From Candidatus Endomicrobiellum devescovinae (GTDB lineage Bacteria > Elusimicrobiota > Endomicrobiia > Endomicrobiales > Endomicrobiaceae), in the NCBI GenBank assembly GCA_031267795.1, contig JAIRYK010000006.1:1-64000 (forward strand): DNA of 64,000 bases. Direction: 5' to 3'. How positions within the stretch are numbered: the stretch's first letter is position 1; every line of letters begins with the position of its first letter. Below, one piece after another: positions 1 to 53,473 of the stretch. The position numbers and the translations under genes were made by a program. The notes under the pieces are model-generated. The model did no database searches, was not told where the DNA came from, and was given only the letters and a program-made list of their open reading frames with translations.

Positions 1-1768
1 TTTCTAGCTTCTCTACCATACACCTACTCATTCCTTTCCCATTGTCCTTCACCCTTATCTCTACATAATCTCCATCTATTCTATATGAAACCTTTATCTC
101 CCCCTTCTTCCCTTCTATTGCTTCTACTCCATTCTTTATTATATTCACCATCATCCTTCTAAAGTCTGTCTTATCCCCTTTTATACATACTATCCCTTCC
201 TCTTTTTCTCTTTCTATCTTTATTTCTACTCCTTCTCCCTTACTCCTATATCTCATGTTTTCTACTATATCTCCCAACATCTCTTTCACCAATATCTCTT
301 CCTCCTCTTTCTTCTTCCCCCCTTCCTCTTTTCTCCCTTCTTCTCTATTCCTGTTTATCCTGTAATTATCCAACATCTTCCCTGCCATTCCTTCTATGCT
401 TCTTATTGCCGTATTTAGCATTCTTTCATCTTCCTCTGTTAGTTTCCCTTTATATACTTCTTCTATTATTTTTAGTGATGTAACTGGTGACGCTATATCG
501 TGTGACACTTCTTTGGCTATCTTATACAACTCTTCTCTCATCTTTAACTTATTTTCTAACTCTTCTATTTTCTTCTTTTCTGTTATGTCAAAAGAAACCC
601 CTAACAAACCTATACATTTACCGTAAATGTTAAAGATAGGAATTTTTTGCGATAAATAAGTTTCATATTTGCCATTAATCAATGCAGGCTCTTCTCCCTT
701 ATAAGACTTTCCTGTTGACATAACAAGTTCATTAATTTTATTAAGCTCATTTGCAACATTTTCTTCATGAAAATCAAAATTTGTTTTCCCAACAACTTCT
801 TTTGCTGATTCTAACCCAAAATCTTTTGCCTGAACTTTATTACACCCCAAGTATACATTCTCACGGTTTAACCAGTATATATGTGAAGGAAGTTTCTCAA
901 TAATGTGTTGGAGCATTACAGTTTCTGTATTTTCAAATCCTAAATGCAATGAATTTTCTTTTAAATCTATATCTTGAATAAAATTAAAGTTTTTTATAAC
1001 ACTTTTATTCTGCAGCATAGGATAGGAACAGCCCACATAGCTGTTTACATTGTAATACATTAAAAGATCGGCTTCATTTTGAAACGTAAAATGCCTAAGG
1101 CGCGGAGATAACCATTTCACAGCCTTGTTTAAATTCGGGAAAATCTTAAACATTTCTTTTATTGCGGTGTTATCATTCCCTACGTGCACTAAAAATATAT
1201 ATTTATTTAAATGAACTAAAGGTAAACTAAATATCCAAGAAATTTCTTCCAAAATATACTGCTCACCATTTTTTAGGCTTGTTCCGTGTCTTTGGGCATA
1301 AGAACTAATACTTTCTTTAAAAGCATTATAAAAATCTTTATTTTTCTTCAATTCTTTTTGTATTAAGTATTTACACTGTCTATAGTAAGAATTTTCTTTT
1401 TCAGAAATGCAGTCTTGCCAATCTTTAGATATAAAATTAACCAAGTCAGGATTGCATCTTTTTAACCAAATATTTTGTTCCTCATAACCCTTTTTTATTG
1501 CTTCTTCTATCTCTTCAGAAGACATTTGATCAATATCTTTAGGCATATAATTCCAACGGCTAAGATACCCTGTACGAACTTCATACTTTTCGTATTCCAA
1601 TAGATTAGTTCTATTCAACAAATTTGAAGTTGCTTGAATATTTTCTTTATCCTCGGGATTTTTGGTATGCGATTCCCAAAAGTATATAACAGAGCCTTTT
1701 GTCTGTCTGTCTGTCTGTGGTAGAAAATTGTTAAACATAGCTACTGTAGTCTTAATTTCATTACTCAT
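1..1768 (-). CDS. Soluble sensor histidine kinase with CDPS-like N-terminal domain (partial, 3' end outside window)
   Basis: The frame is open from an ATG at 1768 (GAGGAG 7 nt upstream) to the window edge, 589 codons, with no stop. No membrane segment is visible, so it is probably cytoplasmic. Residues about 20-215 contain QYILEEISWIFSLP; Tyr171 and Glu175 sit where cyclodipeptide synthases (AlbC type) have their catalytic Tyr/Glu pair, but the usual G-x-S-x-x-N motif is not seen. Residues about 300-400 form a PAS domain ending GVSFDITEKKK. A HisKA box follows (EVSHDIASPVTSL, phospho-acceptor His423), then the N box (NIIKNGVEAIEG) and the G1 box (DNGKGMS). The rest of the ATPase domain lies beyond position 1. 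The last 180 codons are extremely purine-rich on the coding strand, unlike the first part. A tetranucleotide repeat covers codons 17-23. It follows the SemiSWEET gene by 21 nt, so the two are probably cotranscribed. The kinase call is firm; the CDPS-like assignment is by eye and tentative. Confidence 0.85.
   Translation of the reverse strand, partial: MSNEIKTTVAMFNNFLPQTDRQTKGSVIYFWESHTKNPEDKENIQATSNLLNRTNLLEYEKYEVRTGYLSRWNYMPKDIDQMSSEEIEEAIKKGYEEQNIWLKRCNPDLVNFISKDWQDCISEKENSYYRQCKYLIQKELKKNKDFYNAFKESISSYAQRHGTSLKNGEQYILEEISWIFSLPLVHLNKYIFLVHVGNDNTAIKEMFKIFPNLNKAVKWLSPRLRHFTFQNEADLLMYYNVNSYVGCSYPMLQNKSVIKNFNFIQDIDLKENSLHLGFENTETVMLQHIIEKLPSHIYWLNRENVYLGCNKVQAKDFGLESAKEVVGKTNFDFHEENVANELNKINELVMSTGKSYKGEEPALINGKYETYLSQKIPIFNIYGKCIGLLGVSFDITEKKKIEELENKLKMREELYKIAKEVSHDIASPVTSLKIIEEVYKGKLTEEDERMLNTAIRSIEGMAGKMLDNYRINRNREEGRKEEGGKKKEEEEILVKEMLGDIVENMRYRSKGEGVEIKIEREKEEGIVCIKGDKTDFRRMMVNIIKNGVEAIEGKKGEIKVSYRIDGDYVEIRVKDNGKGMSRCMVEKLE
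1701..1718 (-). repeat. Tetranucleotide repeat (4.5 units) in the kinase N-terminus
   Basis: The plus strand reads GTCT four and a half times in succession. On the coding strand this is ACAG repeated, encoding residues 18-23 (QTDRQT) of the sensor kinase. The unit length is not a multiple of three, so gain or loss of one unit would stop translation just after the start. This is the layout of contingency loci, although the copy number is small. Confidence 0.75.
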
Positions 1769-1789: not shown

Positions 1790-2071
1790 TTAATTATTAT
1801 TTTTTCTATACAATAAAATCAATAAAGTAACGCTCCCAGCAATAAAAAGGGTTAAAATATAGCCGTACATCAATATATAATCTTTATATAAATAACCATG
1901 CAAAACTGTAGCTATCTGTATAAAATTAAATCCTGCAAAAGTTATTAACGAAAGACTGCTTGAATCTTTAGTTTTGTAAAGTTTAATAAATTGGGGAATA
2001 AAAAGCACAGCGTTAAGAAACATTGCAAATACAAAAATTAAATCAATAAAATATTTTACATACTCTTCCAT
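1790..2071 (-). CDS. SemiSWEET / PQ-loop family small sugar transporter
   Basis: The protein has 93 residues, three predicted membrane segments and a PQ motif at the end of the first (LFIPQFIKLYKTKDSSSLSL). This is the size and arrangement of bacterial SemiSWEETs, which dimerise in the inner membrane and pass sugars by facilitated diffusion. A longer frame starts at 2125, but the ATG at 2071 has AAGGAG seven bases upstream and gives the normal family length, so it was chosen. The sensor kinase follows within 21 nt, suggesting that a small solute and a sensory response are linked. The substrate cannot be read from the sequence. Confidence 0.8.
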   Translation of the reverse strand: MEEYVKYFIDLIFVFAMFLNAVLFIPQFIKLYKTKDSSSLSLITFAGFNFIQIATVLHGYLYKDYILMYGYILTLFIAGSVTLLILLYRKNNN

Positions 2072-49256: not shown

Positions 49257-50438
49257 TTACATGACGCTATTGGTGTCGTTTAGCAGATCTTTAGGAATCT
49301 CTTTGTTTGTAGGAGATCCCAATTCTTTTAACTTTTGAGCCCTTGCTACCAAACTGTCCTCTTTCTTATCAGAAGAAGAAAGCCTTTTTAAGGCTTCTTC
49401 CGTCTTGTCTTTTGCTTCTGTTATTTTTCTATTGGCATCAAGCAAAATTTCAGCAAAAGTTACAAATTTATCGTAAAGATTTCCTCCTACTTTGGCTATT
49501 TCAAGAACATTTTTTTTCTGGTTTTCTTGACGCCAAATATACTCAACGGTTTTTAGAGTAGCTAAAAGCGTTGAAGGTGCAACTATTATAATATTTTTCT
49601 TAAATGCATAGCCTACTAAATCTGGCTTATCTGCAACTGCCAGAGAAACAGCACCTTCTATAGGCACAAACATTAAAACATATTCAGGTTGGTTAAGTCT
49701 CTGCAAATTGGCATAATCTTTTTCCGCAAGCTCATCAATGTGTTTTTTTATACTTACGGAATGCTCTTTTAAATAAATCTTTTTATCAGCTTCATTTTGA
49801 GAATTATAATATTTTTCGTAAGCTCCTAGAGATGTTTTTGCGTCAACAACTATGCGTTTTCTATCGGGTAAGTTAACTATATAGTCTGGAATCTTTCTTC
49901 CGCTTTCTTCTTTAAACTGCTCTTGAGAATTATAATGCACACCTTCTATCATACCCGCATACTCAAAAATTCTTTCTAAAGTAAGCTCTCCCCATATCCC
50001 TTGTAATTTATTCTCACCTTTTAAGGCTCCTGCGAGATTATTGGCTTCTTCGCTTACCTGCTTATTAAGATTAATCAATTTTTCCAATTCTTTCTGTAAT
50101 CCAGATATTTTTTCTGCTTCATATATTTGGAGATTTTCAACCTTGTTTTTAAACTCATCAATTTTTACTTTAAACGGTGCGACTACATTTTCCAAAGAAG
50201 TTTTATTCAAATCCGTAATTTTCGCATTTTTTTCCTCTAAAACTTTTGAAGCAATATTCTCAAATTCTATTTTCAAAGAATCGTTTATGCCCAATTGTCT
50301 TTTAATATTTTCCTCTAAATCTTTTATCTTCTGTTCTTTAGCCGCATTATCTTTTACAACCGCCATATACTTGTGCAGAAGAAAAGAAACTCCAGCGATA
50401 ATTCCAATCAAAATATATAAAATCGCACTCATATTCAT
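49257..50438 (-). CDS. rmuC: DNA recombination protein RmuC
   Basis: The 393-residue protein has one N-terminal membrane helix, a long coiled coil (residues ~25-140) and the RmuC core (GIWGELTLERIFEYAGMIEG, VVDAKTSLGAYEKYY, VLMFVPIEGAVSLA, IIVAPSTLLATLKTV), a PD-(D/E)XK-like fold. It limits rearrangements at inverted repeats in E. coli. The start overlaps the stop of the upstream kinase gene by ATGA. Confidence 0.93.
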   Translation of the reverse strand: MNMSAILYILIGIIAGVSFLLHKYMAVVKDNAAKEQKIKDLEENIKRQLGINDSLKIEFENIASKVLEEKNAKITDLNKTSLENVVAPFKVKIDEFKNKVENLQIYEAEKISGLQKELEKLINLNKQVSEEANNLAGALKGENKLQGIWGELTLERIFEYAGMIEGVHYNSQEQFKEESGRKIPDYIVNLPDRKRIVVDAKTSLGAYEKYYNSQNEADKKIYLKEHSVSIKKHIDELAEKDYANLQRLNQPEYVLMFVPIEGAVSLAVADKPDLVGYAFKKNIIIVAPSTLLATLKTVEYIWRQENQKKNVLEIAKVGGNLYDKFVTFAEILLDANRKITEAKDKTEEALKRLSSSDKKEDSLVARAQKLKELGSPTNKEIPKDLLNDTNSVM

Positions 50439-53400
50439 TTTAGTATCGGAAATTTTATATAGAAAGTTGTACCTTTTCCTATAACACTCTTAACCGATAT
50501 TTCTCCTTTCAAATTTTTTACTATGCCATAACATATTGATAAACCAAGACCTGTACCTTTGCCAGTTTCTTTTGTCGTGAAAAATGGATCAAATATTTTA
50601 GAAAGAATCTCGGGAGCAATTCCAGATCCTGTATCAGATACGCTCAAAATATAATTACCACTTTCCTCTTCAGTTTTTATAGTAATTTTTCCTCCGTTAG
50701 GCATAGCGTCTTTAGCATTCAGTAAAATATTTAAGATTACTTGCTGCATTTGCATAGCGTTTGATTTAATAAAAATAGAAAATTTTATTAAATCTTTAAT
50801 AATTTCTATTCCAGCTTTGGCAAAACCTTTTTCAATTATAAGTAAAGTGGACTCCACAACATTATTTAAATCTATGTCGCGAATATCCGCTGAATTCATT
50901 CTTGCAAATTCAAGCATATTTTTAATAATCTTTTGGCTTCTTAAAGCGGCGTCATAAATATTTTTAAGCCCTTTTTCGGTTTCGCTGTCAAGTTTTTTAT
51001 TTCTGGATAACACTTGAGCAAATCCTATAATAATACTTAAAGGGTTGTTTAACTCATGAGATATGCTTCCTGCAAGTTCTCCAAGTGCAGCTAATTTATT
51101 TTTTTGTATCAATGAGGCTTGAAGGCTATCTCTTTCAATCTGCATTTTTCGCTCTTCAGTTACATCTAACAATACTCCTATTATTCCTCCAAAGTTTCCA
51201 TCAATATTTTTAAACGCTGCCTTATAGAAAATCAAATTTTTTATTCCCTTATCTGATAAAGATACTGGTAGTTCGTAGGAAATTGGCTTCATATCTTTTG
51301 ATATTTGTAAATCAGTTTTCATTGAAAATAATATAGCTTTTTGATCAGAAAATAAGTATTCGGTTGAATTTCCTATTATTTCGCTCTTTGAGTGCGATAC
51401 TATTTCTTCAAATGCCTTATTGCAGCCTGTTAAACGCATTTGTGCGTCTTTATAGTAAACAGCCACTGGAATATTATCCAATAAAGATTGCAAAAACTGA
51501 AACTGCTCTTCAAGAGCTTTTTCAGCTTTCTTTGCCTCTGTTATATCAAGACCCGAGAAAATATAGCCAATCACTTTCCCAGAAACAGAAAATTGAGGAA
51601 TAATATACATAAGAACATCTATGTATGTTCCGTCTTTTCTGCGGCAAAGCCATTCAAGACCACTTTTTCTTTCTGAACTTACTGCTTTGTTAAATGTTAT
51701 GGATTTTTTATTTTTATCAAAAAATATTATTTCAGAAAAATCTGTCTGAATAAGCTCTTCAATATCATAACCAGTTAAAATGCGAGTTCCTCCACCACAA
51801 ACCACTATTCTGCCTTGCAAATCTGTTGAAAGTATAATGATAGATTTTGCAGAATCCAAAATATCCTGATGCAATAATGCCAAGGCTAAAACTTTATTGG
51901 ACTGATTTATTGAATAAGATATCAAGAGCAATATAATGACCAAAGCGCTTGTTATAAAATACCCTAAAGATTTAGACTGGTTTATAGTGCCTAAATGCGT
52001 TAACTTTACTACAGACCATTTTTCTCTATTTAAGAATTTTTTTGACACATAAAACTGTTTGTTATTTATTGAAATAATATCTTTATCTCTTACTTCCGAC
52101 AATAGCAAAGACTTTCTTTTTCCCAATACACCATCAGGGTTCCATAAATTTTTAACACTTGCATTTTCCTCGCCAGATATTAAAATTCTACCACGCTCAT
52201 TTATTATAAAAGCATTATCAAACTCATTTAATTTCTTAACAATCCCAAGTACTGAATCTTTTACAAAAACAATACCATCTTTGCCATATATACTATTATT
52301 AATTACATAAGCACAGTAAAAAGATCTATCGTTTATATAACTATTTTCCTTAATAAGAGCTTTATTTTTAATCAATGTTTTCAAATGTTTAAAAAATTTT
52401 GCGTTTTCATTATAGATTTTATTTTTTTGTGAGAAATTCATATCCGGATAATTTGAATAGAAAACAATTTTACCATCCATGTCCAAAACACCCACTAAGG
52501 AAACATCAAAACTATTTTTATATGCATTTAGCATTTTGGCAATTCTAGGAGCATTATCAGAAGATGGATTAGACAAAGATTCTTTTAAAAATGGCGAATT
52601 GGATAAAGATTTGGATATTTGATCTATTTTCTCAAAAATAATTGAAGATGTTACAAGTATATCTGTACTTGCTGAATCTGTATTTTCTATAATCGTCTTT
52701 TTTGCATCTGTTTCAAGATAATTGGAAAAGAAAAATCCCAAGAGAAACAACAAAACTAAAATAGAAGCCAAAGGAATGTGTTTCCAATAAAACGGAATAT
52801 AATCGTATATTTTTACATTTTTCTCTTTTAAGATTTTAAAATATTTGAAAATTAAATTTGATATTGCAAACACCGAACAAGCTATTATCGTCCGTATCAT
52901 AGCAAATATTTCTGTGGAATCTACATTCAGAAATATTAAAATTTTTAAAATGCAAACATTAATACCAAAAAACGCCGAACAGACAATTATCGCCAAGATT
53001 TTGTTTTTCTGTTCAGAAGCAGCTTCGTAATATCTGTACTCCATAAGCAAAATAAGCAGCCAAGCCGTAACAAAGAAACAAATAAACAAAAGCATTTTAA
53101 ATACGACAATACCGTAAAAACAATATCCAATCAAAGGGATAGTAATCAGCGGAAATATAGAATACTTTATTACACTACTGCGTTTAGAGATTTTTAAATA
53201 TGCGACTTCTGCTCCGAGAAACAGAAAAATATCGCAGACATAAACCAAAAACCAATATATAGCTGATAGAAGTGTGCTTGAAATAACATCACCGTATGAG
53301 AAGGTCTCTATAAACTTAACAAATGCTTCGCAAACGGCAAATAAAATAAACCAATGATATGAAATTTTATTTAATTTTGTTCTTTGCCCAATAAAGCAAG

Positions 53401-53473
53401 CCAAAGCAAGAAATATATATGACCATGCAGAAATAAAAAGTATGTAATTATAGTTTTTACCAAGGAAATCCAT
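50435..53473 (-). CDS. Membrane-bound PAS-domain sensor histidine kinase
   Basis: The 1012-residue protein has about seven N-terminal membrane segments (residues 5-215), a further segment near 235-250, an extracytoplasmic sensor of about 250 residues and another membrane segment near 505-525. Two PAS domains follow (~535-775), then HisKA ([17 protein letters not shown], His near residue 800) and a full HATPase ([36 protein letters not shown]). No receiver domain or adjacent response regulator is present, so its partner lies elsewhere. It is coupled to rmuC. Confidence 0.92.

Follow-up and report, generated by a model that had tools for sequence, protein, structure and literature searches.

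A sensor kinase from a symbiont of termite-gut flagellates with an N-terminal domain of predicted cyclodipeptide synthase fold

What might a bacterial histidine kinase sense if its N-terminal domain looks like a tRNA-dependent enzyme? Candidatus Endomicrobiellum (Elusimicrobiota) comprises symbionts of termite-gut flagellates. We analyzed the 64-kb stretch (hereafter the window) with which contig C4 opens in the genome of Candidatus Endomicrobiellum devescovinae (1.28 Mb in 24 contigs). The window begins with a sensor kinase gene (2..1768, minus strand), and a first-pass annotation made from the sequence alone had proposed that the N-terminal part of its product resembles a cyclodipeptide synthase (CDPS), an enzyme that makes small cyclic peptides out of two aminoacyl-tRNAs. 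We asked whether this resemblance is real, whether the active site is intact, and what such a domain could do on a kinase.

We found that the N-terminal domain is a diverged CDPS of the XYP type, by fold and by profile. The domain (residues 1-258; 995..1768, minus strand), which we call the X domain, was modeled with AlphaFold2 (pLDDT 89.6), and the predicted structure has the CDPS (HUP/Rossmann) fold in comparisons to the PDB with Foldseek and VIA. A profile of X domains aligned with three XYP CDPSs from the PDB (Prob 94.6, P 6.5e-8) and, when a standalone XYP-like CDPS (L254) was added to these, aligned over 161 columns (hhalign, Prob 95.7, E 9.7e-9); the X and XYP profiles are both small, and these pairwise values are rough. 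The resemblance was beyond chance: the score against the three XYP CDPSs was 56.1, whereas none of 200 column-shuffled controls exceeded 23.8 and the reversed profile scored 13.0. The predicted structure and the profile search thus bore out the proposal of a CDPS-like N-terminal domain, with Tyr171 and Glu175 falling on the catalytic Tyr and Glu. We regard the fold and the homology to CDPSs as nearly certain.

Other searches were negative or marginal. Pfam PF16715, the check named in the first-pass annotation, gave no CDPS match to the window protein up to E 10 and none to any of 29 X-domain members up to E 1, and a Pfam scan of the window protein found no family worth naming in residues 1-280. 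Comparison of the X profiles (17 or 29 members) with NYH-type CDPSs alone was not significant by hhalign (one comparison gave P 0.025). An hmmsearch of PDB sequences with the 17-member profile returned no CDPS up to E 10. In a plain hmmsearch with the X profile the three XYP sequences ranked 1 to 3 among 2000 shuffles (E 0.017, 0.047 and 0.21), the third barely above the best shuffle (E 0.25). The Pfam, PDB and NYH searches would have led us to reject the relationship; the appropriate comparison was with XYP enzymes. These results are what speaks for no relation to CDPSs at all, that is, for a likeness due to chance or to a generic Rossmann fold. That explanation is refuted by the fold and the XYP profile match, and we give it virtually no credence.

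We compared the active-site places of the X domain with those of characterized CDPSs. According to passages in PMC5935735, Ser37 (AlbC numbering) accepts the acyl group, Tyr178 and Glu182 hold the first aminoacyl group and form the dipeptidyl enzyme, and Tyr202 is the proton relay of ring closure and is strictly conserved in active CDPSs. We recounted these places in all available frames without a motif filter (53 distinct X frames and 75 distinct Y frames, the latter described below; gaps excluded). The place of the acyl-accepting Ser is occupied by Ser33 in the window protein (1670..1672, minus strand; Ser34 in the Nocardia brasiliensis enzyme, Nbra-CDPS) and is Ser in 42 of 42 frames. Tyr171 (1256..1258, minus strand), aligned with Tyr178 (Nbra Tyr172), is conserved in 37 of 37 frames. 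Glu175 (1244..1246, minus strand), at the place of Glu182 (Nbra Glu176), is found in 36 of 37, with Lys in one broken copy (L008). The acyl-transfer places are thus kept across X members from two phyla.

Where active CDPSs have the strictly conserved Tyr202 (Nbra Tyr194), the cyclization residue, all 37 of the X frames that cover this place have His (His195 in the window protein; 1184..1186, minus strand). The next residue, Val196, sits on Nbra Pro195, the place of Pro203, where 24 of the 37 frames have Val and the other 13 have Ile. The X domain therefore has neither the N40-H203 pair of NYH enzymes nor the X40-P203 pair of XYP enzymes. The X domain retains the residues of the early steps and has an altered residue of the last step. 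The loss of Tyr202 in every frame argues against ordinary cyclodipeptide synthesis.

The motif that had drawn attention to this domain, QYILEEISWIFSLP, and the numbering of Tyr171 and Glu175 were correct, and the AlbC motif given for comparison, NYVLAEAPLFADSP, checks out. A proposed match of Y...KKNKDF to Y...EEDAEF lies in a stretch that is aligned in register. Two other proposed matches need revision. VHVGN against YHIDT is off by one, such that His195 falls on Tyr202 and not on His203. KDIDQM against THIDEM is probably chance; from the alignment, the equivalent of that strand appears to be KYEVRTGYLSR. The nucleophilic Ser had been called not evident, with Ser33 noted as nearby. Ser33 is in fact at the nucleophile place. 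It is missing only from the default local alignment; once that alignment is extended, or a global one is used, Ser33 pairs with the Ser of L254. Its spacing to Tyr171 (138 residues) equals that of Ser34 to Tyr172 in Nbra-CDPS (residue numbers from passages in PMC13062777).

The rest of the protein is a cytoplasmic-type histidine kinase, cut by the end of the contig. The gene starts with an ATG at 1768 (minus strand) preceded by a GAGGAG box, and the frame stays open for 589 codons until it meets the window edge, where contig C4 ends as well. A PAS_4 domain (residues 291-399; 572..898, minus strand) was recovered by Pfam at E 1.5e-10. It is followed by a HisKA-like dimerization and phosphoacceptor region (residues 418-461; 386..517, minus strand), below the Pfam cut-off, with the motif HDIASP and His423, and by the first half of a HATPase_c domain (residues 531-585; 14..178, minus strand), supported by Pfam and by box patterns. 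This agrees with the PAS-HisKA-HATPase architecture proposed earlier, and the description of the kinase as soluble is fair (the highest mean hydropathy of any 19-residue stretch is 1.41). By simple patterns the H, N and G1 boxes are present and G2 is not within the truncated frame; in 15 long relatives the same patterns found H in 12, N in 15, G1 in 13 and G2 in 14. Contigs C4 and C19 have an exact 119-base end in common (positions 1-119 of each), and on C19 the kinase frame, with the latter half of the HATPase missing, runs on to a receiver domain. At an assembly branch of this sort the frame may also continue in other ways, and the receiver domain belongs to the window copy only if C19 is the continuation of C4.

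A search for further CDPS-PAS-kinase fusions, as had been suggested, found other CDPS-fold PAS kinases. Matches to the X domain were found in 15 of 59 genomes around that of the window (own included; all of the same genus, some with broken pieces only) and in 9 of 49 genomes from the order of a Holosporaceae metagenome-assembled genome (MAG). Among named contigs, 34 loci had an X domain, in Endomicrobiellum or Endomicrobium and in records of Holosporales or other Alphaproteobacteria. There was no match outside these two symbiont groups in the plasmids or viral contigs searched, and no CDPS pattern in viral contigs was confirmed. The members are 36-76% identical to the window copy, with several paralogues per genome. 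Among the matches listed, long frames have the X domain heading a PAS kinase. The longest relatives (770-935 residues) have PAS, kinase and receiver-like domains (the receiver above the Pfam cut-off in L058, below it in L054 and L070); other frames break off early at a contig end or a stop.

We conclude that the X gene has moved between Elusimicrobiota and alphaproteobacterial symbionts, since a tree of 29 X domains requires at least five changes between the two groups. Passages in PMC11257099 describe a nucleotide transporter gene that passed from alphaproteobacterial flagellate symbionts (orders UBA3830 and RUG11792) to Endomicrobiellum. Many copies of the X, Y and CDPS genes across the genus are broken by stops or frame breaks (e.g., L101 4284-4894, L095, L096, L016, L018), which suggests rapid gain and loss. 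In Endomicrobiellum porotermitis, a CDPS remnant lies directly after an X-domain kinase on the same strand (L075 6001-8267).

By following a transporter gene that adjoins the kinase (see below), we reached kinases with another input domain, the Y class. Y matches were found in 15 of the 59 genomes around that of the window and in 24 of the 49 genomes of the Holosporaceae MAG's order, compared to 9 of 49 for X. The window's own genome has five on four contigs, some broken, including C8:38839-39552 (L210) and C10:109597-110301 (L196). Pfam likewise failed on 20 Y members. The Y profile matched XYP CDPSs in the PDB (5OCD, E 3e-8; Nbra-CDPS, 9e-8; Rickettsiella grylli, 1.7e-7), with E 4.9e-15 against XYP by hhalign. 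An AlphaFold2 model (pLDDT 85.7) pointed the same way, with CDPSs in its first 32 Foldseek rows (best E 1.0e-10). In 385 Alphaproteobacteria the Y profile had a single match, a standalone CDPS. Compared directly, X and Y gave P 0.0025, which is not strong.

The Y class has a different pattern at the active-site places. In the recount without a motif filter, 57 of 61 Y frames have Ser at the acyl-acceptor place, and 57 of 59 have Phe at that of Tyr178; of the two frames with Tyr, one is the standalone CDPS L254. At the place of Glu182 there is Glu in 51 of 59 frames and Lys in 5. The XYP-type Tyr-Pro pair is mostly kept, with Tyr in 54 of 57 and Pro in 57 of 57. By these residues, X and Y depart from working CDPSs at different places, and Y is less strict than X.

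Canonical CDPSs are also paired with PAS kinases in these symbionts. The window's genome has a canonical CDPS on contig C23 (L087 5162-5848; PF16715 E 2e-45, TIGR04539 E 1.5e-52), with Ser30, Tyr172 and Glu176, a Tyr 24 residues past Tyr172, and then Lys where NYH enzymes have His203. A PAS-PAS kinase gene lies 22 bases downstream on the same strand. This tandem was found in 6 of 6 Endomicrobiellum loci with an intact CDPS and downstream sequence (L087-L092, own included); the count omits L093, in which the CDPS is cut by a contig end, and L094, in which it is broken. Three of the tandem loci (L089-L091) additionally carry a SemiSWEET-like gene. In a Holosporales MAG (L103 1194-2341), a bona fide CDPS, directly behind a SemiSWEET-like gene, runs in frame into a likely PAS start before the contig ends. 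Pfam made no call on the last 60-odd residues and the NCBIfam kinase match was weak (E 0.0011), so that this PAS assignment rests on likeness to neighboring PAS sequences. On a Legionella lytica plasmid (L144 4965-7719) a CDPS gene overlaps a gene for a PAS-HisKA-HATPase-receiver-Hpt kinase. The latter is annotated only as 'response regulator'. A search of 398 Pseudomonadota genomes with PF16715 gave no match at E 1e-8, but there was no positive of any kind in that search and absence is not established by it.

CDPS chemistry is thus joined to PAS kinases in these symbionts in three arrangements: a canonical CDPS with a kinase (in tandem, perhaps fused), the X kinases, and the Y kinases. In the most economical view, CDPSs first partnered these kinases, and two lineages then turned the enzyme into an input domain.

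Based on these results we suggest that an XYP-type CDPS became the input domain of a cytoplasmic PAS histidine kinase. The pocket would still bind the acceptor end of aminoacyl-tRNA, and Ser33, Tyr171 and Glu175 might still be able to take up or hold an aminoacyl group. Ring closure would be slowed or absent because Tyr202 is replaced by His. Occupancy or acylation of the pocket would then set kinase activity via the PAS domain, and the kinase would report charged tRNA, and with it amino acid supply, in the symbiont cytoplasm. We consider it probable, with some reserve, that the X domain is an input domain rather than an ordinary synthase. That its ligand is aminoacyl-tRNA is a tentative proposal, doubtful as it stands, although the strictly kept acyl-transfer residues favour it. 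The explanation as a whole, a CDPS-derived input domain that reports charged tRNA, seems to us about evenly balanced between right and wrong. In its fullest form, Ser33 would be acylated, the ring could not be closed, the acyl state would be the signal, X and Y would read different stages of the reaction, and the two classes would have spread between unrelated flagellate symbionts as gauges of charged tRNA; we think it unlikely that all of this holds.

Several observations weigh against this proposal. The conservation is partly a product of how loci were found. Loci on named contigs were admitted only if they matched either of two motifs, which cover Ser33 or Tyr171-Glu175. Members of the X alignments (17 in A1, 29 in A3) and of the Y alignment (A5; 20 of 25 passing segments, from 63 loci examined) were chosen with motif filters covering a Tyr/Phe-x-x-Glu-Glu stretch and, in the case of Y, also the Tyr-Pro pair; the apparent invariance in these alignments is therefore partly built in, and a chance estimate of 9e-4 was set aside. 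L058 was treated by hand, and entries without a clean frame (L008/L031, L024/L032 and other broken copies) were treated by hand or dropped. The mean net charge of X domains is -5.0 (range -13 to 2), compared to +2.8 for six local canonical CDPSs; this negative charge disfavours RNA binding, as a matter of net charge and not of a patch analysis. Together with the coexisting canonical CDPS, it favours cyclodipeptides as the ligand. The His could take over the role of Tyr202, leaving an active enzyme. The Y class is looser, with Glu at the Glu182 place in 51 of 59 frames and no Ser in 4 of 61. Finally, the window copy itself may be damaged by an in-frame deletion in its HATPase.

Our results might also indicate that the protein is an enzyme-kinase hybrid, in which His195 stands in for Tyr202. 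The domain would then produce a dipeptide, cyclic or linear, to be sensed by the attached PAS domain and carried by the small transporter, and the whole would form a self-contained signal system. The kept Ser, Tyr and Glu places in X fit such a hybrid, as do the in-frame CDPS and likely PAS start behind a SemiSWEET-like gene in the Holosporales MAG, the CDPS-kinase tandems in all six intact Endomicrobiellum CDPS loci with downstream sequence and on the Legionella lytica plasmid, and passages in PMC5767969 that report PAS domains near CDPS genes and propose quorum sensing. However, Tyr202 is lost in every X frame although passages in PMC5935735 describe it as strictly conserved in active CDPSs, and the Y class usually lacks Tyr178 instead. 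A hybrid of this kind is unlikely, though it deserves to be kept in mind.

The domain could also have ceased to handle tRNA and become a receptor for cyclodipeptides made by the cell's own canonical CDPS or by neighboring symbionts. CDPS tandem genes and X and Y kinases do coexist in the window's genome, the negative charge of X domains fits, and several paralogues per genome would be expected for receptors of different products. A strict Ser33 (42 of 42) is unexpected if there is no acylation, however, and 9 of the 10 alphaproteobacterial genomes with X kinases that were searched gave no PF16715 match, weak evidence given that these are small and partly incomplete MAGs. We consider a product receptor quite improbable. 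Least credible among the readings that accept the CDPS origin is that of a decayed CDPS retained as a ligand-free spacer or dimerization module. Many copies in Endomicrobiellum genomes are broken, the window copy may be missing half its HATPase, and the Y class varies at the Ser and Glu places, all as expected of a relic. In contrast, the active-site places of X hardly vary among members only 36-76% identical to the window copy, and we judge a structural relic very unlikely.

The kinase gene has a small transporter gene next to it. A SemiSWEET-like PQ-loop transporter of 93 residues is encoded at 1790..2071 (minus strand), 21 bp upstream of the kinase on the same strand. It matched PF04193 (E 7e-6, above the cut-off) and NCBIfam SemiSWEET_2 (E 3e-7, below the cut-off, as were other NCBIfam SemiSWEET models). 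The 24 genomes that were picked for their X or CDPS genes contain 19 close copies (E up to 1e-10). Three of these lie next to an X kinase, five next to a Y kinase and five next to a CDPS or its remnant; four have none of these beside them, and two are at contig ends. Viewed from the kinase, few loci have such a neighbor: a SemiSWEET-like gene stands beside 4 of 37 distinct X loci, including a broken one, and some of the 37 start near a contig end. The association is a lead and not a fixed operon. Elsewhere in the window, a 1012-residue frame (50435-53473, minus strand) encodes an ordinary-looking membrane-type PAS histidine kinase of another kind, with 22% identity to the PAS-kinase part of the window kinase.

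The X kinases join two fields so far apart, tRNA-dependent peptide enzymes and two-component signaling. They pose a testable question: can a kinase in bacteria use a converted enzyme to read charged tRNA or cyclodipeptides? With such a CDPS-like domain, a bacterium living in symbiosis with termite-gut protists may be sensing ring peptides or charged tRNAs inside its own cell. The X genes provide another example of genes passing between symbionts that are unrelated but have hosts of the same kind. They also offer a handle on the puzzle of CDPSs in intracellular bacteria, whose spread there is remarked on in passages of PMC2922099 (2010), which treat CDPSs only as standalone proteins.

The first-pass annotation had named no described system of this kind. 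That statement stands for the fusion: no report of a CDPS-kinase fusion was among the literature matches listed (open-access PMC papers only), and we found no report there of a sensor kinase with an aminoacyl-tRNA-synthetase-like domain. It has to be qualified for the gene neighborhood, since passages in PMC5767969 already describe PAS domains as frequent near CDPS genes, with quorum sensing suggested. Passages in the same paper report CDPSs fused to methyltransferases, and in PMC5816076 a CDPS with a C-terminal domain of no known function.

The closest known systems are the XYP CDPSs of Fluoribacter dumoffii (5OCD), Nocardia brasiliensis (5MLQ/9I5M) and Rickettsiella grylli (5MLP). The X domain differs from them in having His at Tyr202 and Val or Ile at Pro203, in its fusion to PAS-HisKA-HATPase, and in escaping recognition by Pfam. 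NYH CDPS genes beside PAS proteins are a second point of comparison, and the window's own genome has such a pair on contig C23. There the CDPS is canonical, separate and of another subfamily, whereas the X domain is remodeled and belongs to the kinase itself. PAS-containing cytoplasmic hybrid histidine kinases have PAS_4, HisKA, HATPase and a receiver-like domain in common with the long relatives but differ in the input domain, with no CDPS-fold input among the literature matches listed. The eukaryotic Ser/Thr kinase GCN2 senses tRNA through an aminoacyl-tRNA-synthetase-like domain, of the class II HisRS type, next to its kinase domain. In GCN2, as in the X kinases, a domain from the world of tRNA handling is joined to a kinase, and the likeness is one of analogy only.
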